A DNA stretch of 36,043 bases from Candidatus Saccharimonadota bacterium. Its GTDB lineage: Bacteria > Patescibacteriota > Saccharimonadia > Saccharimonadales > Saccharimonadaceae. Of this stretch, positions 2,413 to 34,619 are shown in pieces; the first letter of the stretch is position 1, and each line of letters starts with the position of its first letter. Below the pieces are notes generated by a model. It had not been told where the DNA came from. It was given only the letters and a program-made list of their open reading frames with translations, and made no database searches. Location of the stretch: NCBI GenBank assembly GCA_009776375.1, contig WRNW01000006.1, positions 1-36,043 on the forward strand, written 5' to 3'. A program made the translations under genes and the position numbers.

Positions 2413-4881
2413 CTATAGCTCTGCCCAATTTTTGCCTGATTTAATATCAACTTTGAGCCGCACTCCCAAATTCGGATGGATATTTTCCATAATGTGTTTT
2501 AGTTTTTCCCCGACTGCCCTAGCGTCCGCCGGCGCGCATTCGACCAAAATACTATCGTGAATTTGCAGAATCTGTTCAGCCCGGACACCACAAAACTCAT
2601 CGAGGCTAGATTTTTCATCATTATTCGAGGAAACAGGAGTAGCGGAACGAGGCGCATTTGACATGCGTCGAGTGAGCAACGCATCTGTTGACGAAGAAGA
2701 ATGTGAAAAAGCAGTCTCGACTTTGAGCATGGCCATTTTCATCAAATCCGCCTCAGTCCCTTGAATCGGCATGTTGGCGGCAGCGCGTTTAGCAGCTTCG
2801 CGAATCACGAAATTCGCCGATTTAACGTCCGGTGTCAAGCGACGACGACCAAACAAAGTTTCGACGTAACCCTCAGTTTTGGCCTTATCAATCGTCGCGT
2901 CGATAAAATCGCGAATCGGCTGGCGAACGCGGAAATAACGAGCGATGAATTCTTGGGCTTTTTTAAAATCCATGCCAGTCGCTGCCGCCAGTCCGTGCGG
3001 ACTCATCCCATATAAAACACCAAAGTTAATAATTTTGGCGTGGCGTCGCATCTCCGGTGTGACGTCGTCAAAGGCCACCCCGTAGGCTTCGGCCGCGGTT
3101 TTGGTGTGAATATCAACGCGGTCATCCTCGAAATCCTCGATCAAATTCGTGTCGCCGCTGAGCGCCGCCGCTAGCCGTAGCTCGAACTGCGAATAATCGG
3201 CGCTGACCAAAACTTTCCCATCGCTCGCCACAAACGCCCGGCGAATTTCGCGCCCGAGTTCGGTCCGAATCGGAATGTTTTGTAAATTCGGATTGCTCGA
3301 CGATAAACGTCCTGTCGCCGTGACGTCTTGCCGAAAATCGGTGTGCAATTTGCCGTCCGTCGCCACTAAATTCGGTAGCGCATCAACATAAGTATTTTTG
3401 AGTTTAAGGATTTCACGTATCTCAGTAATTCGATCGATAATCGGATGCTGGCCGCGTAGTTTATCGAGTTCCGCTTTGCCGGTCGAAAAGTAACCGCGCA
3501 CCGATTTTTTGATACCAGTTGTTGGTAATTTCAGCTCTCGAAACAGCGCGTCCGACAGTTGCGGTGCTGAACTAATGTTAAATTCATAACCGACAGTTTC
3601 CCAGATTGTCTGTTCCAGTTTGGCGATTTTTTTGGCAAATTCTCGGCTCTGGCTAGCCAAGATCTCAGTGTCAATTTTGACGCCGCGGGCTTCGATTTTT
3701 GCTAGCAAATTCTGCATCGGAAAGTCGAGTTCGCGCGCTAATTCCGCTAATTTTGGCATGGCGTTCAAGGTTTTTGCCTGATTTGTCGCGACGATTTTTA
3801 ATTGATCGAGATTGGCGACTTTTTCCACCCGCCCGAGCAAAAATCCAGCAATCCGGGTGTCGAATTTAATTTCTGGCAAAGGTTTATCTTCGGCTAGCAA
3901 TTTCTCGGCCAAAACTTTACCATCGTTGACGATAATTCGACCGTCGCTCTCGGTAAAGAATAATCCCGGCACGTCCTCGAATTCCGGCTCGGATGTGACC
4001 GTATCATCACGCATATATTCCGGCAATCGGCGTAGCAGCGACGTGAATTCCAACTTTTCGAGCTCGGTGCGCAATTTCGCGACATCTAATTTTTGCACAT
4101 CGACCGCCGCGAGATCGAGTTTTAATGGTGCATCGCACCAAATCCGCGCTAGCTCGCGCGACATATAGGCTGAATCTTTGCCGGATTCCAACTTTGCCCG
4201 CCAGGCCGGTTTGATCTTGTCCAAGTTATCGTAAATCGCCTCGAGTGACCCGTATTCTTGGAGCAGCGTGATCGCCGTTTTTTCGCCAATGCCCGGCACA
4301 CCGGGGATGTTGTCCGAATTGTCGCCCTTGAGCGATTTGAGATCGAGAAATTGCTCGACTTTTAATCCATATTTTTTCTCAAAAGCCGCCACGTCGAACT
4401 TTTCCAGATTCGCCAAACCTTTTTTGAGAGCATAGAGTTCAGTATCGCTATCAACCACCTGGAGCATGTCGAGGTCCGAACTAATCATGATCGTGTGAAT
4501 CCCCTGCTTGTTCGCCTGCTCGCTCAGGGTCCCCATAATGTCGTCCGCCTCGTAATCGTCGAGCTCGAGCAGCGGCCAGCCAAAAGCGTCGAGCAGATTT
4601 TTCAGTAGCGGAATCTGCGCATAAAAATCCGGCGGCGCCGGGTGGCGGTTGGCCTTGTACTCGGGGTAAATTTTCACGCGGCGGCGAATATTGGTTTTCG
4701 ATTTGTCCCAAGCCACCGCCACATAATCCGGCTCGATTTTACGTAGCAACTCGAGCGCCATCGCCGCAAAACCATAAACCCCACCGGTTGGCGTCCCATC
4801 GCGCAGACTGAGAGAAGGCATCGCGTAATAACTGCGATAAAAAATCGACTTGCCATCAATCAGCGCGAATTTCTTGGTCAT
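2413..4881 (-). CDS. polA: DNA polymerase I with in-frame palindromic insertion
   Basis: 822-residue DNA polymerase I for gap filling and primer removal. Residues 1-290 are a complete 5'-3' exonuclease (LELDDYEADDIMGTLSE, ISSDLDMLQ, GDNSDNIPGVPGIGEKTA). The middle region (about 300-400) is much shorter than a proofreading domain, so 3'-5' exonuclease activity is probably absent. The polymerase domain has motif A (SADYSQFELRLAA), motif B (RRHAKIINFGVLYG) and motif C (ILQIHDSILVE). About 39 Ser/Arg/Asn-rich residues (roughly 725-763), encoded by a palindrome, are inserted in the loop before motif C. A TGA-TACAAT box ends 6 bp before the ATG, so the mRNA is probably leaderless. Confidence 0.95.
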   Translation of the reverse strand: MTKKFALIDGKSIFYRSYYAMPSLSLRDGTPTGGVYGFAAMALELLRKIEPDYVAVAWDKSKTNIRRRVKIYPEYKANRHPAPPDFYAQIPLLKNLLDAFGWPLLELDDYEADDIMGTLSEQANKQGIHTIMISSDLDMLQVVDSDTELYALKKGLANLEKFDVAAFEKKYGLKVEQFLDLKSLKGDNSDNIPGVPGIGEKTAITLLQEYGSLEAIYDNLDKIKPAWRAKLESGKDSAYMSRELARIWCDAPLKLDLAAVDVQKLDVAKLRTELEKLEFTSLLRRLPEYMRDDTVTSEPEFEDVPGLFFTESDGRIIVNDGKVLAEKLLAEDKPLPEIKFDTRIAGFLLGRVEKVANLDQLKIVATNQAKTLNAMPKLAELARELDFPMQNLLAKIEARGVKIDTEILASQSREFAKKIAKLEQTIWETVGYEFNISSAPQLSDALFRELKLPTTGIKKSVRGYFSTGKAELDKLRGQHPIIDRITEIREILKLKNTYVDALPNLVATDGKLHTDFRQDVTATGRLSSSNPNLQNIPIRTELGREIRRAFVASDGKVLVSADYSQFELRLAAALSGDTNLIEDFEDDRVDIHTKTAAEAYGVAFDDVTPEMRRHAKIINFGVLYGMSPHGLAAATGMDFKKAQEFIARYFRVRQPIRDFIDATIDKAKTEGYVETLFGRRRLTPDVKSANFVIREAAKRAAANMPIQGTEADLMKMAMLKVETAFSHSSSSTDALLTRRMSNAPRSATPVSSNNDEKSSLDEFCGVRAEQILQIHDSILVECAPADARAVGEKLKHIMENIHPNLGVRLKVDIKSGKNWAEL
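2611..2710. repeat. Palindromic element inside polA
   Basis: A roughly 100-bp imperfect palindrome centred at 2660. The core is a 6-bp stem, GCGCAT (2652-2657) and ATGCGT (2663-2668, one mismatch), around the loop TTGAC. Outer parts also pair: TTTTCAT and ATGTGAAAA at the ends, TTCG/CGAA, and AACAG/CTGTT. It is translated in frame as about 33 low-complexity residues at a place where other PolA proteins have a short surface loop. The core is nearly identical to the centre of the element at 11289-11412. Confidence 0.75.
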
Positions 4882-10353: not shown

Positions 10354-10516
10354 ATCCGAAACTAATCTTTTTTGCGAACCCTCCGATTTTCCGAAAGTTT
10401 CTCTTTGATTAAAATTTTCGAAAGCACGAATACATGGAGTGTGATTCGGAAATTTTAGAAACAGAAACTTTGACGCGAAAATCGGTCGGGTGAGACAAGG
10501 AAGATTAGTTTTGGAT
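10354..10516. repeat. Large imperfect palindrome between natA and natB
   Basis: A 163-bp hyphenated palindrome centred near 10435 fills nearly all of the 192-bp gap between the two transporter genes. The outer arms at 10354-10369 and 10501-10516 match at 15 of 16 positions. Further arms pair at 10383-10391 with 10477-10485 (CCGATTTTC) and at 10394-10402 with 10463-10471. As RNA it would form one long hairpin between the two cistrons and could stabilise or separate their expression. A 67-codon ORF across it (10330-10533) is judged fortuitous. Confidence 0.75.
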
Positions 10517-13261: not shown

Positions 13262-13320
13262 AGTCTAGCAAATCGCTTTACATTTGTCAAATGCTTTACA
13301 TTTTTTAAGTGCTTTACATT
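13262..13320 (-). promoter_or_regulatory. vapBC promoter with three direct-repeat operators
   Basis: Minus-strand -35 TTGACA (13290-13285), 17-bp spacer, -10 TAGACT (13267-13262). GCTTTACATT occurs three times, at 13275-13284, 13293-13302 and 13311-13320, exactly 18 bp apart. One copy is in the promoter spacer and the others lie upstream, the last touching the dnaG stop codon. This is a likely operator array for VapB. A second possible -10, TACAAT, lies near 13245. Confidence 0.7.
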
Positions 13321-15256
13321 ATTCGTGATCAGTTTTGCGGCCGTCCCAGACTATGAATAAACCACCAAAATCATCGCGCGAGGAAGTTTTTTCGAGCAGG
13401 TTGAGATCGCGTTTGAGGCCGTTGACTGCGCCGTTAAGGATTTCGACGCGCTCGCTATTTTCACCATCCAAAGCTACCGCCAGCTCGGCGCTGAGACTTT
13501 CAAATTTGCTGCGGAGTTTTAGTTTTTCCAACTCAACCATGTTCGCGAGCAACAAGATTCGCTCGTCCGTGTCGCCGCCCAGTTCCTGTGATGCGATGAT
13601 TTCTAGTTCAGCCATTTTGTCCGCCATTTCGCCGGAAATTTCGATTTTTTCACCCAATAGATAATATTTCAACTTCGCAAAAGTTTCGGTCAAGTACTCG
13701 TCACGCAGATTATTTAGGATGGTTCGCAAACGCTGGGTTTTGAGCGCGATTGCAAAAATTTGATTCAGGAAATATTGTTCATCACGACGTGAATATTCGC
13801 GACGTGGTGTTTTGATTTCGCGCATAATTTTTCGTGGTTTTTTATCTGTAACAAACGAATACATTTTTTGTTCAAGGACGTGCAAACTGGCGCCCGTTAG
13901 TTCGCTCAACTGTTTTAGATAAAATTCGATTTCGACTGCGTCGCGGAGATTGCGAATTAGTTTTAATGCCTGGCTAGTCAAGGTTTTTTTACCATCCGCC
14001 GTGGTTAAATCTTCGCGCGCGGCGTATTGATTAATCACCCACTCGACAGCTGGTACATGTTGTTTGATCGCGGCACGCCATCTGTCGATATTTTTTTGAA
14101 TGAGCTCATCGGGATCCTTCGCTTCATTAAACGAAATCACCGAAAGTTTTAATTCCAATGGTTCGGCCAGAGCAATCGCTCGTTCGGTTGCCGCTAACCC
14201 TGCGCGATCACCGTCGAAACATAGTCGGACATTGTGGCTCAGGCGTGATAAACTTTTTAAATGATCGCGGGTCAAGGCCGTCCCCGCACAAGCCACCACA
14301 TTTTTTACCCCGGCCTGGTGCGAACTAATCACGTCCAAATTTCCTTCGACTAAAACTGTAAAATCTTCCTGGCGAATGGCGTTTTTGGCAAAGTTTAATC
14401 CGAAAACTTGGCGGCTTTTGTCATACAAAATCGTCGCTGGCGTATTCAAATATTTTGGCTCGCCATCTCCGATAATTCGCCCGGTAAAACCAACAATTTG
14501 ACCCTGACCATCACGCAACGGAATCATCATCCTTGAACGAAACATCTCGCCACCGCGACCGCCGATCAAACCAGCCGCGCGGATTTCTGGTTCGCTAAAA
14601 CCTCTTTTTAATAAAAGTTGTTTAAGGTTGACACGCGATCTGGGACGACCTTCTTCTGAATCCTCTCCACGAAAATGCGTCAATGGAGCCGCCGGAGCGA
14701 CAGGGTCCCCCATAGATGGGGATGTCGCGCCGCGCGGATCGCTTGACGCATTACGGGATGAAGAAGAAGGTCGTCCCAGATCGCTATCTCCTGGCGCATA
14801 ACCAATTCCCCACTCCATGACGGTTTCGCGCGATAGTTTTCGCCCGTTCGATATGTAATTTGAGGCTTCCTTTGACTTGACCATTTCGCGTTGGAAATAA
14901 TTCATCGCCAGATTGTTCATTGTGATAATTCGCTCTTTGCGTTTAGCGAGATCGCGCGGCGCTCGTTCGTCGTATTGACCGAGATCCACACCGGCTTTTC
15001 GGGCCAAGAGTTCCAAGGCACCGCGAAAATCTAAACCTTCAACCTCCATGACGAAACTAAAGACATCACCGCCCTTGTTAGAGGAAAAATCATGCCAAAT
15101 ATCCCGCTCGGGCGTGACGAAAAATGACGGAGTTTTCTCATTGGTGAACGGCGACAGCCCACGCCAATAGCGACCAGAACGTTTGAGCTGAACATATTCG
15201 CCAATCACGTCCTCGATGGCCAGCCGCGCCCGCACCTCTTCCTTTGCGTCTTGCAT
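13319..15256 (-). CDS. dnaG: DNA primase with zinc ligands lost and a palindromic insertion
   Basis: 645-residue primase that makes RNA primers at replication forks. The N-terminal domain keeps the zinc-finger framework (GLSPFTNEKTPSFFVTPER, IWHDFSSNKGGDVFSF), but the usual Cys/His ligands are Ser, Thr, Asp and Ser. The RNA polymerase core follows, with TOPRIM motifs VLVEGNLDVISSHQAG and CFDGDRAGLAATERAI. The C-terminal 180 residues are helical and would bind the helicase. Residues about 158-208 are a 50-codon insertion encoded by a palindrome, placed between GYAPGDS and RVNLKQLLLKRGFSE, which would otherwise be continuous. A TAAAAT ends 6 bp before the ATG, suggesting a leaderless mRNA. Confidence 0.95.
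   Translation of the reverse strand: MQDAKEEVRARLAIEDVIGEYVQLKRSGRYWRGLSPFTNEKTPSFFVTPERDIWHDFSSNKGGDVFSFVMEVEGLDFRGALELLARKAGVDLGQYDERAPRDLAKRKERIITMNNLAMNYFQREMVKSKEASNYISNGRKLSRETVMEWGIGYAPGDSDLGRPSSSSRNASSDPRGATSPSMGDPVAPAAPLTHFRGEDSEEGRPRSRVNLKQLLLKRGFSEPEIRAAGLIGGRGGEMFRSRMMIPLRDGQGQIVGFTGRIIGDGEPKYLNTPATILYDKSRQVFGLNFAKNAIRQEDFTVLVEGNLDVISSHQAGVKNVVACAGTALTRDHLKSLSRLSHNVRLCFDGDRAGLAATERAIALAEPLELKLSVISFNEAKDPDELIQKNIDRWRAAIKQHVPAVEWVINQYAAREDLTTADGKKTLTSQALKLIRNLRDAVEIEFYLKQLSELTGASLHVLEQKMYSFVTDKKPRKIMREIKTPRREYSRRDEQYFLNQIFAIALKTQRLRTILNNLRDEYLTETFAKLKYYLLGEKIEISGEMADKMAELEIIASQELGGDTDERILLLANMVELEKLKLRSKFESLSAELAVALDGENSERVEILNGAVNGLKRDLNLLEKTSSRDDFGGLFIVWDGRKTDHE
14635..14784. repeat. 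Palindromic element inside dnaG (23-bp perfect terminal inverted repeats)
   Basis: A 150-bp hyphenated palindrome, exactly 50 codons. The outer arms 14635-14657 and 14762-14784 are perfect 23-bp inverted repeats starting GCGATCTGGGACGACC. Nested inside are AATGCGTCAA (14674-14683) with TTGACGCATT (14743-14752), then GCGACA (14697-14702) with TGTCGC (14723-14728), and a small CCCCA/TGGGG tip. The translated part is Ser/Pro/Arg/Gly-rich and without hydrophobic core. Its position in a loop of an essential protein implies that it is tolerated in frame. Confidence 0.85.
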
Positions 15257-18699: not shown

Positions 18700-20622
18700 T
18701 TATATTTCTCCTGGTAGTTCTATATGTAGCAGTCGTGCCGCATTCTCCATAACTTGCTTGGCAGCTTTTACGAGGTTGATACGGAACACTTTGGTATTTT
18801 CATCTGTTGCGCGAGACACTAGGCTGCTCTCATAGAAGGAATTAACGACCCTGGCAAGCTCTGTTAGGTACGCAGCAACCTTATGCGGACTAGCTTTGTC
18901 CGCAGCTTCTTTAACCACTACCGGAAACCACATCACTTCCGTCAGAATGTTTTTTTCTTGCGGCGAGATTTCTGCTGGAAGACTCACTAATCTATCAATA
19001 AAACTATCGTCATTCTCCTCAATCAATTTTCGCAACCTAGCATGTGTATATTGAATCTTTACAGATCCGCTATCAACAATTTTTTCAGCAATGTTAAAAT
19101 TAAATTCCATGTCTTTCTCGTAAGATTGCCTTAAGTCATCGAATATAAGAGCGCTAATACCAATAGCTTTCGCACGCGCTTCATCGCTCTCTGTCCATGC
19201 CGCACCGATATCAGCTCTCCGTTCTTGTATACCTCGACGTGCAGAATCTATTGCCGAATCCATCAGATCATCTAGCATCACGACCTGTCCTTCTCGACTT
19301 TTCATTTTTCTACCATCGACATTAAGGTGACCGAATGATATGTGTCTAACATCACTCAAGGCAAAGTAGCCAAGCTGTTTAGCCATGTTGAATAACTTTA
19401 TACAATGATCACCCTGTTCTTTACCAATTACGTAATAAACTTCATCGGCACCCAATTCGCAAGCCCGATAGCGAATCGCTGCCAGATCACGCGTTAAATA
19501 TACGCTCCCGCCGTTTGGCTTTTGTAGAATCTCTCCTTTCGGAAGATTGTCCTTGCCAAGCATGATTTTGTCATTCATATTGCCTTTACCGTCAATGAGG
19601 GTCTGCGACGGCAATATTATCGAATCATCTTCATCATACTTTAGAACACCTTGCTTAATCGCTTCTTGCAAAACATCTGTCATTTTATCTTCGTAGAAAC
19701 TTTCGCCTTGAATGGCATCGAATTCTATACCAAGTCTGCCATAGGTACCCGCGAATTCCTCTAAGCTCCATTCTCTAAATTGCTGCCAGAGTGCAGTCAG
19801 TTCCGTATCTCCTTCTTCCATTTTGCGCCATAACGTTCTGGCAGTCTCGACCATTTCTGGATTATCTTTACTTTCCTTGTTATATTCCCGATAAATTTCC
19901 AAGAGAGTGTTGGCAGGATTTTCAGCAATCATTTGCTGAAATAAGGGCGCATTCTCCTCCATATGCTTGAAATACATATAAAATATACCGCCAAATTGCG
20001 AGCCCCAGTCACCTATGTGATTGATGCCAAACGAGATATTACCAACAGCTTCTTGCAGGTTCATAAGACTTTGGCCAATGATTGTGGAGCGGAGATGTGC
20101 CACAGTCATTTTCTTAGCGATGTTCGGAGACGAATAATCAATAATAACAACTTTTGGATCGCCGTCCGAGGAAGTGCCATATTTTTCTCCCAAATCCAAG
20201 ACTTGATTTAGAATATCGGTGCCGATTGATTGTTCGTCAATACCAATATTAATGTATGGACCCACCTTGTCTGCTAGTTTAATGTGCTTCAAGGCGCCGA
20301 TGTCGGACAAGTCAAAGTTGTCCATCATCCCATTGTTGTGCACATTAATTGACAAGTCATACTTTTCACGATAATTACTATCCTTGATCTTTTCAGGCAC
20401 CATACCTTGGCCAGGAGAACGGTTGACAAGCCTGCTGATTTCGTTAATAAGCTCTGTTACTACATAAACACCGATTGGTGGTATGTTTTTCTCGACAAAT
20501 TGTCTCTTCTTGCGTTCTAATGCATTTTTAGTTTTTTCATCAACAGTTTTATTCAAGTCTACGAGAGAGAGAGAGAGAGAGAGAGAGAGGATCAGAGGGT
20601 TCAGTATTCGAATCCTCGACAA
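18700..20622 (-). CDS. Second arginyl-tRNA-synthetase-like protein with degenerate HIGH motif, possibly phase-variable
   Basis: About 640 residues from a TTG, class I ArgRS-like. The catalytic region reads SSPNIAKKMTVAHLRSTIIG, where ArgRS normally has HVGH, so the first His and the Gly of HIGH are replaced (TVAH). The KMSKS-like loop is GRKMKSREGQVV. NHIGDWGSQFG and the C-terminal tRNA-binding region ending VFRINLVKAAKQVMENAARL are present. A full canonical argS lies at 32898-34619. The best start signal, GAGGA plus ATG at 20647, is out of frame with this body because of the CT tract at 20563-20589. Only a TTG without a ribosome binding site (20622) is in frame. It may be in an OFF state, or the tract may be mis-assembled. 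Confidence 0.85.
   Translation of the reverse strand: MSRIRILNPLILSLSLSLSLVDLNKTVDEKTKNALERKKRQFVEKNIPPIGVYVVTELINEISRLVNRSPGQGMVPEKIKDSNYREKYDLSINVHNNGMMDNFDLSDIGALKHIKLADKVGPYINIGIDEQSIGTDILNQVLDLGEKYGTSSDGDPKVVIIDYSSPNIAKKMTVAHLRSTIIGQSLMNLQEAVGNISFGINHIGDWGSQFGGIFYMYFKHMEENAPLFQQMIAENPANTLLEIYREYNKESKDNPEMVETARTLWRKMEEGDTELTALWQQFREWSLEEFAGTYGRLGIEFDAIQGESFYEDKMTDVLQEAIKQGVLKYDEDDSIILPSQTLIDGKGNMNDKIMLGKDNLPKGEILQKPNGGSVYLTRDLAAIRYRACELGADEVYYVIGKEQGDHCIKLFNMAKQLGYFALSDVRHISFGHLNVDGRKMKSREGQVVMLDDLMDSAIDSARRGIQERRADIGAAWTESDEARAKAIGISALIFDDLRQSYEKDMEFNFNIAEKIVDSGSVKIQYTHARLRKLIEENDDSFIDRLVSLPAEISPQEKNILTEVMWFPVVVKEAADKASPHKVAAYLTELARVVNSFYESSLVSRATDENTKVFRINLVKAAKQVMENAARLLHIELPGEI
20563..20589. 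repeat. GA/CT dinucleotide microsatellite in the start region of the argS-like gene
   Basis: Twenty-seven bases of strictly alternating G and A on the plus strand (13 units plus one base), read as CT in the gene and coding for Leu-Ser repeats. From the ATG at 20647 the frame after the tract gives Arg-Arg-Leu-Glu and then a stop at TAA. Gaining one unit or losing two would join that ATG to the ArgRS body. Tracts of this length are prone to slipped-strand mispairing. Confidence 0.9.
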
Positions 20623-25469: not shown

Positions 25470-26441
25470 CTAAATATTATATAACAATTGTATGATCAAA
25501 TTATAAGAATTACCAAAATTTAACAGTCCGACAATAGATGATAGATTATTTTGACTGAGATTTTTAGTAATACGTCGACGAGTCTTGGGACGAATTACGC
25601 GATAATCTAGATAATTTACCCAACCCAAGAAGTCAGTCCCCGCATTTATAGTCTGAATAAAGATTTTATCCTGATGTAGATTCATTATTAACCGTGATTC
25701 TAAAAAGAGTGTTATGCGTTCTTGATACCAACCTAATTTTTCCGCATCTGCATCTAAAATTACGAAATCATCAACATAACGAATGTAATATTTGGCGCGC
25801 AATTTGTGTTTAATGAACTGGTCGAGTTCATTTAAATAAATGTTAATGAGTAGTTGCGAAGTCACATTACCCAGCGGCAAACCACACGGTTGGCTATTGA
25901 TCCGAAAACTGTCTATAATCTCATTCAAAACTGCTAGTAATTTTGGATCAGCAATCCGCCGAGCAAGAATCTGTTTTAGAACGTGATGATCCACCGTATC
26001 AAAACATTTTCGAATATCACATTTTAGAGTATAACATTGCCGTTGGTTCTTGTTTGATACGCGTCGTGCGAAGTCCCGATAACGATTTAGTGCGCGATGT
26101 AAACCTTTACCAACACGACATGAGTAGACGTCAAAAATAAATTTGCGATCAAAGTAGTCGTAGAGAGCAGCATAAACCGCGTGATGAACGATACGATCAC
26201 CAACCGTGGCCTTGTGGATTATGCGATATTTTGGGTCATGGATAATAAATCGCTGATATGTGCCGTGCCGATATGCGCCCGACAATAACTGGGCACTCAA
26301 ATCCGCCAAACTCGAAAAAGTATGCATCGCAAAATCCGCAACTTCGGGTTTATTTGTTTTACCGCGTCGGAAACTCTCCCAACTCTTTAATAAGTTTTCC
26401 ACCGAGAAAACTGTTGTGTGATCTGGTATACTGTTCTTCAT
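25470..26441 (-). CDS. Diversity-generating retroelement reverse transcriptase
   Basis: About 323 residues from the ATG at 26441. RT motifs in order are HKATVGDRIVHHAVYAALYD, the catalytic LKCDIRKCFDTVDHH, GLPLGNVTSQLLINIYLNEL and the catalytic YIRYVDDFVIL, then the thumb-side MNLHQDKIFIQ and DFLGW. The motif LGNVTSQ fits the [I/V/L]GxxxSQ signature of DGR RTs rather than the QGxxxSP of group II introns. With Avd it would copy the TR RNA with adenine-specific errors and home the cDNA into the VR. The upstream in-frame codon at 26489 is rejected because it overlaps avd. It is followed closely by the vWA gene. Confidence 0.93.
   Translation of the reverse strand: MKNSIPDHTTVFSVENLLKSWESFRRGKTNKPEVADFAMHTFSSLADLSAQLLSGAYRHGTYQRFIIHDPKYRIIHKATVGDRIVHHAVYAALYDYFDRKFIFDVYSCRVGKGLHRALNRYRDFARRVSNKNQRQCYTLKCDIRKCFDTVDHHVLKQILARRIADPKLLAVLNEIIDSFRINSQPCGLPLGNVTSQLLINIYLNELDQFIKHKLRAKYYIRYVDDFVILDADAEKLGWYQERITLFLESRLIMNLHQDKIFIQTINAGTDFLGWVNYLDYRVIRPKTRRRITKNLSQNNLSSIVGLLNFGNSYNLIIQLLYNI
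26427..26432 (+). promoter_or_regulatory. avd promoter (extended -10)
   Basis: TATACT preceded by TGG on the plus strand. The expected start near 26439-26440 is only 3-4 nt before the avd ATG at 26443, so the mRNA has almost no leader. It lies within the first codons of the RT gene on the other strand. Confidence 0.45.
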
Positions 26442-26442
26442 T

Positions 26443-26820
26443 ATGACTATAAACCCTTCATCAACACCAAAATTGTCTGGTATCGCCATGAAGATTTTAG
26501 CAGGTTACAAGAAATGGCATACTCTTTCACGTCATGTCCCAAAAATTCACCGCTATTCACTGGGCGTTAAAATCGATGATTGCTTTGCGGGCTTGGTTGA
26601 ATTGGTAGCCATGGCGCAGTTTTCTGATGTGGAGCTGAGACGTAAATACCTGACCGCAGCAATTGCTAAAAATGATTGCCTGAAATTCATGCTCTATACA
26701 CTATATGAAATAGAGGGAATCGATGAAAAATCTTTCGTTGCCTTATCATCAGACATAGAAGAAGTTGGCAAAATGCTTTATGGTTGGAAGAATAAAATCG
26801 AGACCACAATAAAATCATAA
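26443..26820 (+). CDS. avd: DGR accessory variability determinant (Avd-like four-helix protein)
   Basis: 125 residues with the Avd/23S-rRNA-IVP-like four-helix pattern: YKKWHTLSRHVPKIHRYSLG, then KIDDCFAGLVELVAMAQFS, RRKYLTAAIAKNDCLKFML and the C-terminal EEVGKMLYGWKNKIE. In other DGRs a basic Avd pentamer binds the RT and the TR RNA and is needed for mutagenic copying. Unusually, it lies on the plus strand, opposite to RT, TR and target. Its ATG is one base from the RT ATG, and its stop is 4 bp before the TR. A second in-frame ATG (residue 16) is an alternative start. Confidence 0.88.
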   Translation: MTINPSSTPKLSGIAMKILAGYKKWHTLSRHVPKIHRYSLGVKIDDCFAGLVELVAMAQFSDVELRRKYLTAAIAKNDCLKFMLYTLYEIEGIDEKSFVALSSDIEEVGKMLYGWKNKIETTIKS

Positions 26821-32897: not shown

Positions 32898-34619
32898 TTA
32901 CATTTTCTCTGGTGCAGTAATCCCAAGAACGTTGAGTTCGCTGCGGAGGATTTCTGCATAGGCCGCGACTAATTGTGTACGGATTTTGGCCCGTGGGTCG
33001 CCCTCGACACGCGAGTTTTCGTAGAATCGATTGAATGTTTGCCCCAATTCGTATAAATAAGTACAGATTAAATGTGGTGCTAGCTCATCGACCGCCGCCG
33101 CGAAGACTTCGGGCCATTCGGTCAATTTGACCATCAATGAACGCTCGTGTTCGTCAAAATCGGTTGCGGTAATCGTTGTTTCCAAGTCGACTTTGCGCAA
33201 AATCGAGCGCGCTCGAGCGTGTGAGTATTGCAAGTACGATCCGCTATTCCCAGTCATATTAACCGATTCATGCGGTTCAAAAATCAGATCAGCACCGAGA
33301 CGATTTTTAAGGAAGGCATATTTGATCGCGCCGAGCGTAGTCGCGTCGTCAGCTCTCCCTTGAGCTTTCCTATATTCATCCGCTACGAGATCGAGTACAT
33401 CGACTGCCCGGAGGAAATTGCCTTTTCGACTACTCATCTTTTCGGCGCCAGCTAGTTTGACCTGTCCGTGCGGAATGTGCAACGTGCGCCGGGCCACCGT
33501 TGGTTCGAATTGTTCGAGACTTTTGAGGACAACTTTCATGTAATCAATAATGTCATTACCGGTGATAATTATTGATCTATCAAAGTGGTAATCCTGCCAT
33601 TTGAGCAGATTCGTCCCGATGTCTTTCGTTTCATAAGTTGGTAATCCCTCGCTATTGACGAAAACCCGGGTGTGCAAACCATACTTTTCACCGTCAAAGA
33701 TTATTGCACCATTAGATTTCGTGTACACTTCAGGGTGTGCCAAAACGGTTTTTAGGCCGATTTTTGCGCCCGCACTTTCGGGATAATATTTTTCGAATTG
33801 GCTACCGATTTTCTCATAAAAAGCGTCAAAGTAAGCATAGCTCCACTCTCGACAAGTCCAGTAAATTTTCGCGAACGGTGATTCGATTTCGTTCTCCTCA
33901 TGCAGAGCATAGATTTTCTGATTATTTTCAACAATCGCCGCTTGGGCCACCGGATCGTCCTCGTAGGCACGGGTTCCCTCCACATAACATCGGGCCATGA
34001 ATTCGATCCTTTGATCCAAAGGTAACAGATCCCCCGCATCTGGCGAAAATAACATTTTCTGAACCAATAACGCATCTTCTGGCGCCGCAGAACCGAGCGA
34101 GAACTCCTTTTCCATAGCCCACATCGTTTTGGCGACATGTAGCCCGACATCACCGCCGAAATTGACGCGGTGGACTGTGCCGCCAGCCGCCTCGATTAGA
34201 TTGGAAATCGCATCGCCGACCACGCTGGTGTAGAGATGGCCAACATGCAAAACTTTGAATGGATTAGGGTCAGAATATTCGGTGACGACAACTTTGTCCT
34301 GATACAAGTTCGACCGACCATAATCCGGTGTCGCCAGCATTTCGCCCAACTCGCGCGCCAAATAAGCGTCCGCGAGACGCAGGTTGATAAAACCCGCCCC
34401 GGCGACTTCAACACTGGTAAAAATGTCTTGTTTCTTTAACTCTGTGGAAATTTTTTCACCAATCTCGCGCGGATTTTTGTTCAAATCTTTCGCCAAAATT
34501 AGCGCTACGTTGGTCGCTAGATCGCCAAATTTCGCCTCGGGTCGCGACAAACTAACCGTCTGGTCAAAACCGAACAAACTTTTGACCGTCTCGCTGATAA
34601 TTCTCGCAATTTTCTCCAT
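32898..34619 (-). CDS. argS: Arginyl-tRNA synthetase (canonical copy)
   Basis: 573-residue class I synthetase that charges tRNA-Arg. Intact HIGH motif in NPFKVLHVGHLYTSVVGDA and intact KMSKS in GAEKMSSRKGNFLRAVDV. The N-terminal Add-1 domain (KFGDLATNVALILAKDLNK) and the C-terminal anticodon-binding domain (LYELGQTFNRFYENSRV) are present. It starts 18 bp after pyrH and probably shares its transcript. Since both signature motifs are complete here, this is the likely housekeeping ArgRS, in contrast to the copy at 18700-20622, from which it differs strongly in sequence. Confidence 0.96.
   Translation of the reverse strand: MEKIARIISETVKSLFGFDQTVSLSRPEAKFGDLATNVALILAKDLNKNPREIGEKISTELKKQDIFTSVEVAGAGFINLRLADAYLARELGEMLATPDYGRSNLYQDKVVVTEYSDPNPFKVLHVGHLYTSVVGDAISNLIEAAGGTVHRVNFGGDVGLHVAKTMWAMEKEFSLGSAAPEDALLVQKMLFSPDAGDLLPLDQRIEFMARCYVEGTRAYEDDPVAQAAIVENNQKIYALHEENEIESPFAKIYWTCREWSYAYFDAFYEKIGSQFEKYYPESAGAKIGLKTVLAHPEVYTKSNGAIIFDGEKYGLHTRVFVNSEGLPTYETKDIGTNLLKWQDYHFDRSIIITGNDIIDYMKVVLKSLEQFEPTVARRTLHIPHGQVKLAGAEKMSSRKGNFLRAVDVLDLVADEYRKAQGRADDATTLGAIKYAFLKNRLGADLIFEPHESVNMTGNSGSYLQYSHARARSILRKVDLETTITATDFDEHERSLMVKLTEWPEVFAAAVDELAPHLICTYLYELGQTFNRFYENSRVEGDPRAKIRTQLVAAYAEILRSELNVLGITAPEKM

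Follow-up and report, generated by a model that had tools for sequence, protein, structure and literature searches.

Introduction

To our knowledge, mobile palindromes that encode protein segments have been described mainly in Rickettsia and Wolbachia, and their mode of movement has yet to be settled. The Rickettsia palindromic elements (RPE) are described in passages of PMC3767692 as palindromes of 100–150 bp that lie within open reading frames and leave the frame unbroken; the same passages also place them in the genes for DNA polymerase III alpha and tRNA ribosyltransferase-isomerase. In the mitochondria of Nematomorpha, perfect inverted repeats occur in protein genes, and template switching has been proposed for them in sections of PMC6649704, which also mention bypassed palindromes reported for yeast mitochondria. 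Parts of PMC3733652 deal with REPs, dispersed hairpins that in some cases occur within genes of replication and repair, and with MITEs, short non-autonomous repeats of similar length. As far as titles and abstract openings tell, no such coding palindromic elements have been reported in the literature for Saccharibacteria, Patescibacteria, or the Candidate Phyla Radiation.

Here, we report that a palindrome in the primase gene dnaG of a Saccharibacteria genome (G000) is one copy of a dispersed mobile element of Saccharibacteria. Below, the window denotes the whole stretch of DNA analysed, 36,043 nucleotides in length.

Results

The palindrome in dnaG

The features of the locus are as follows (window positions).

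13319..15256, minus strand: host gene dnaG, 645 aa (open reading frame, Pfam domains, and alignment to 2au3)
14635..14784: whole palindromic insert as given in the preliminary description, 150 bp (arm pairing and folding)
14654..14765, plus strand: conserved 112-bp element core, model R1, orientation A (cmsearch 132.7 bits, E 1.8e-40; 98% identity to the pcrA copy)
14635..14653: left site-specific outer arm, 19 bp, not common to other copies
14766..14784: right site-specific outer arm, perfect reverse complement of the left arm
14674..14692: inner stem, left half
14734..14752: inner stem, right half

Over 23 bp, the two ends of the insert (14635-14657 and 14762-14784) are reverse complements of each other without a mismatch. 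When extended by the next pairs, the outer arms reach 29 nt with 93% pairing, and the inner arms (14674-14692/14734-14752) pair at 84%. Folded as RNA, as the preliminary description had proposed, the 150-nt insert reached -99.7 kcal/mol, far below the mean of -52.1 for 200 shuffles (z -12; 0 shuffles equal). The own genome was sampled as the window plus 20 stretches (428,043 bases, 58% of 732,928), and among the 10,630 160-nt windows of this sample the palindrome was the top fold (z -6.0). No other inverted repeat so long at the same identity was found across the window, where Rfam at the gathering score returned 0 families. Thus, the 150-bp palindrome with perfect 23-bp ends, in frame in dnaG, was borne out in its coordinates, pairing, and folding.

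The Pfam domains recognized in DnaG are the zinc ribbon, Toprim, DnaB_bind, and DNAG_N, the last in two parts. Among primases of solved structure, the best match (2au3) aligned through GYAP and resumed past the insert. Excising exactly 50 codons yielded GYAPGDSRVNLKQLLLKRGFS, 21 residues, whereas this segment measures 19 residues in each of the five nearest relatives; the exact edges of the insertion are therefore uncertain by a few codons. Comparison across related genomes, also suggested earlier, found the site empty in all 23 other DnaGs of the family that could be read, in agreement with a recent insertion. Because the only dnaG found in the own genome is the insert-bearing copy, we infer that the insert would be translated and that DnaG function is kept.

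Other features of the window were observed as well: an inverted repeat between two open reading frames (10354-10516, 21-nt arms at 86%), a possible diversity-generating retroelement in which a reverse transcriptase (RVT_1) adjoins a bAvd-like protein (25470-26820), and two arginyl-tRNA-synthetase-type genes within 16 kb (18700-20622 and 32898-34619). Elsewhere in the genome, a strong palindrome lies inside prmC (L226 13841-14000, G000:C8), and a RAYT-type Y1 transposase gene (L145, G000:C2:6550-6777), located between genes read as recA and ruvB, is flanked by TTGCAGGACC palindromes.

Distribution of the element

In the own genome, BLAST matched the inner part of the palindrome to the helicase gene pcrA (98% identity); valS holds a further copy at 77%, and tsaD, at a contig end, a fragment. 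Over 41 genomes, comprising the own genome and its relatives, matches occurred in four. A covariance model, R1, was built from the core alignment of 10 copies. Scanning the family with it gave 24 matches, 19 complete and five cut by contig ends, and showed that 11 of 295 genomes carry the element. In an order-wide draw, R1 matched five of 392 genomes, all within the own family, and no copies were found outside it. An exact-pattern scan of a one-genome-per-species collection, which would miss divergent relatives of the element, returned eight loci, only in records titled Candidatus Saccharibacteria or Nomurabacteria. Core length was 112–136 bp in 18 of the 19 complete copies (112 bp in dnaG) and 103 bp in the remaining one. 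The carriers apparently come from arthropod guts; some isolates, Emb289 and Nc150 among them, are presumably termite samples, judging by their names. A virus, phage, or plasmid source was rejected, as the exact pattern had no match in viral_contigs and blastn had none in phages and plasmids.

Host genes and reading frame

All but one of the complete copies (18 of 19) are in frame and free of stops, and all of these lie in conserved genes. The complete coding copies by genome are listed below.

G000: dnaG, pcrA, valS
G001: tsaD, ychF, tgt
G008: rlmD-like, rluA-family, ychF, mnmA
G022: tsaD
G005: tsaD
G059: obgE
G047: class-V aminotransferase
G100: pseudouridine synthase
G057: FemAB
G098: exonuclease I
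G004: uvrD-type helicase

Host families were confirmed by profiles for 16 of the 18 copies; for tsaD of G022 and ychF of G001, the names come from reading the sequence and from homology searches. By our reading of the profile hits, 16 of the 18 hosts act in replication or in tRNA/rRNA modification or are ribosome-linked. Seven coding copies are oriented one way and 11 the other, and the two orientations give unrelated peptides. An intein, an intron, or a protein domain was rejected as an identity for the element, because it is read in either direction, and the resulting peptides are unrelated. The Ser/Pro/Arg-rich composition of the DnaG insert, described earlier as a feature of the peptide, is, with the element read in both orientations, better regarded as a by-product.

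The sole intergenic complete copy (L055 in G057, between genes read as radA-like and PIN-type) is also the only complete copy with stops in all six frames. Open frames in the coding copies and closed frames in this one match what translation acting as a filter on coding copies would produce, and the open frames suggest that the coding copies would be translated. It is conceivable that the ribosome skips the hairpin (translational bypassing), or that it is excised from the mRNA, giving DnaG without the extra loop: the long perfect stem brings both host ends together, and the bypassed palindromes of yeast mitochondria, mentioned in a part of PMC6649704, are a precedent. Skipping would not require an open frame, yet all 18 of the 18 complete coding copies are in frame and stop-free, and the stops of L055 also argue against it; we regard this explanation as extremely unlikely.

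Recent movement within genomes

In the own genome, the cores in dnaG and pcrA are 98.2% identical, with 2 differences in 112 bp. Similarly, the tsaD and ychF cores of G001 are 98.3% identical, and the cores of three gene copies in G008 are 95–97% identical. Pairs of cores from different genomes peak at 92%, below the closest within-genome pairs in three genomes, and the tree of copies agrees with the closeness within genomes. Since separate genes of a single genome carry near-identical cores, the element has moved recently. The remaining within-genome pairs are 61–80% identical; therefore, each genome also holds older copies. Insertion sites vary even between genomes of the same genus, and one such genome (G002) had no R1 match.

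The question of what moves the element leads to the Y1 tyrosine transposases (RAYT) of the carrier genomes, which could mobilise it as a REP/REPIN-like hairpin. Genes matching PF01797 were found in 8 of 11 carriers and in 42 of 284 non-carriers (Fisher 4.5e-5, presuming the same 295-genome draw and ignoring kinship), or, by genus, in 6 of 8 versus 12 of 53 (p 0.006). Within a same-genus trio, G000 and G001 have both the element and a RAYT, and G002 has neither. However, the RAYT genes that were read carry their own, different flanking palindromes, such as TTGCAGGACC... in G000, and the element model had no match at 10 RAYT loci. In addition, the carriers G004, G005, and G059 had no PF01797 match, and the variable part of the element is its ends, which argues against a RAYT/REP reading. 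The association could stem from habitat and kinship. As it is an association only, with other palindromes and no element copy beside the RAYT genes, RAYT was not retained as the mover, and we consider this route unlikely.

Conservation of the hairpin

RNAalifold analysis of 10 copies gave 36 pairs, 14 of them with double changes, and this covariation was not reproduced by shuffling and sliding controls. In an alignment of 22 rows (A2), in which the rows were fitted to the model, one copy is present twice (reverse strand), and two rows are cut at contig ends, double changes occurred in 28 of 35 pairs. They amounted to 121 cells, which count sequences and not events, versus 38 in shuffles. The covariation across copies shows a genuine hairpin that is under constraint, in line with the preliminary description, which named recent origin or selection for a DNA/RNA cruciform. 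G-U pairs accounted for 24 of about 711 paired cells in A2, with 10 in one pair, and many of the double changes were from C-G to A-U or G-C without an intermediate. The rarity of G-U together with the double changes fits a putative stem repair at the DNA level, with one arm copied from the other; template switching of this kind is described in sections of PMC8794818.

Such strong conservation of structure, in hosts of which 16 of 18 belong to replication, tRNA/rRNA modification, or ribosome-linked genes, could also be expected if the palindrome were kept for a function, such as RNA stability or host-gene regulation, and were not selfish DNA. Against this, the sites vary between same-genus genomes, G002 is without a match, both orientations are present, and the scarce G-U pairs point to DNA rather than RNA, so that we judge a retained function to be very unlikely.

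Site-specific outer arms

In the 20 nt beyond the core, the left and right sides were complementary at a mean of 15.5/20 positions within a site (19 sites), while the same test between sites gave a mean of 8.8/20 and a maximum of 13 (342 pairs). The sequences flanking the core in different copies are unrelated to one another; for example, the dnaG and pcrA copies each have perfect arms, 19 and 22 bp long, that do not resemble those of the other copy. Eight empty sites in relatives contain inverted repeats of ≤7 bp, compared with 23 in the filled dnaG. Because the arms pair only within a site and the empty sites are without the repeat, one arm would be a reverse-complement copy of the other, probably produced at the time of insertion or shortly afterwards. 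The "terminal inverted repeats" of the preliminary description thus exist as a perfect 23-bp pairing, but they lie mostly outside the element family, since they differ at every site.

Poor arms (11–12/20) were observed in four of the 19 complete copies, which may reflect age or mean that arms are not obligatory, and in several copies the pairing is interrupted by 1–2 nt where the A/T-rich core end joins the arm. Imperfect arms might be taken to suggest that slow selection built the arms, or that the element inserted into inverted repeats already in place, and that no copying was involved. This is contradicted by cores that are 98% identical and have wholly different, unrelated perfect arms, from which it follows that arms would arise with insertion and not by slow selection, and by empty sites without a notable inverted repeat. 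We therefore find an origin of the arms without copying highly improbable.

Homologues point to the left arm (sense) as native at ychF of G008 and to the right one at tsaD of G022 and G001; at pcrA of G000 the native arm is probably the left. For dnaG, homologue evidence was split, and both sides are arguable. Thus, no consistent native side was found among the sites with homologue comparison. A direct repeat of 5–6 bp is readable by eye at pcrA and valS of G000, and none is clear at dnaG.

Other palindromic inserts

The preliminary description had also suggested a common family for the dnaG insert and an insert in polA. The latter amounts to about 40 residues relative to Taq polymerase, between residues 721 and 768 (window 2581-2718, minus strand), and folds weakly better than shuffles (z -2.0). 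With filters off, R1 had no match in it up to E 10, and the common family was not supported.

Several hosts have further palindromes. Long palindromic inserts with unrelated cores occupy the same loops as the present element in valS of G002 and G001 and in pcrA of G001 (L192, L194, and L121). In mnmA of G000, an unrelated palindromic insert (L230 14961-15120, G000:C12) was found at the loop that carries the present element in G008; by eye, its peptide resembles part of a reverse-strand open reading frame in the ychF insert of G001 (L010). Such hot spots suggest that these loops tolerate insertion and that a general process generates coding palindromes in these bacteria. Another dispersed repeat is represented by peptides of the VIASKAKQS / VIARSEATKQS type, which are in frame in ychF, rluA-family, rlmD-like, and EF-type GTPase genes (L102, L103, L009, L006, and L221 11401-11560). 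A stringent search for coding palindromes found 0 in 400 kb of the control genome G009 versus 2 in 428 kb of G000; with one strong coding window in G009 by folding (z -4.9), its use as a palindrome-free contrast holds only partly.

Discussion

We consider it probable that the element is a selfish mobile palindrome, that its coding copies are translated and tolerated as a loop, and that its outer arms arise when the flank is copied by fold-back. The element would copy itself within a genome, and copies landing in conserved genes would survive only if the frame stays open; surviving coding copies would be transcribed, and their translation would add a loop of about 40–50 residues to the protein. 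At or just after insertion, the strand with the new hairpin would fold back, and a polymerase would copy the adjacent host flank in reverse complement, a template-switch event that may be termed "inverted target duplication." Later repair of the stem could proceed by the same fold-back copying. More tentatively, the element may represent a class of mobile hairpins that consist of the core only and build their own terminal inverted repeats by reverse-complement copying of the target flank, with the fold-back as part of insertion. The recent copies, the empty sites, and the arms peculiar to each site, now seen in a second and distant lineage, offer a testable signature and show a route by which streamlined genomes would gain new protein segments in essential enzymes.

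Comparison with known systems sets the present element apart from several of them. MITEs have a direct target-site duplication and fixed terminal inverted repeats, whereas the terminal repeats here change with each site. It resembles the REP/REPIN-RAYT system in being a dispersed hairpin and in its co-occurrence with RAYT genes. However, REPs flank the RAYT gene with the same repeat and have conserved ends with a GTAG/CGTC tetranucleotide tag; here, other palindromes flank the RAYTs, and the ends of the element are site-specific and without such a tag. With the coding palindromes of Nematomorpha it shares perfect inverted repeats inside protein genes; the sections of PMC6649704 describe no dispersed core common to those palindromes, whereas here a single core has spread and local sequence is confined to the outer arms. 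In palindromes made by template switching, an arm is the reverse complement of its native neighbour; here, pairing is within the site and the empty sites are without arms, the native side having been read at few sites.

The element works like RPE, to which we liken it by size, frame, and host genes, not by sequence, and on the basis of passages on RPE. Both are palindromic repeats of about 100–150 bp (here, cores of 103–136 bp, and 150 bp with the arms in dnaG), both are inserted in frame and stop-free in open reading frames (here, 18 of 19 complete copies), and both have replication and tRNA-modification genes among their hosts. Unlike RPE, the present element is hosted by Saccharibacteria and not by Rickettsiales, with its eight exact-pattern loci only in records titled Saccharibacteria or Nomurabacteria. 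Site-specific paired arms, on which the RPE passages of PMC3767692 contain no description, are the new point that it adds to what those passages report of RPE.
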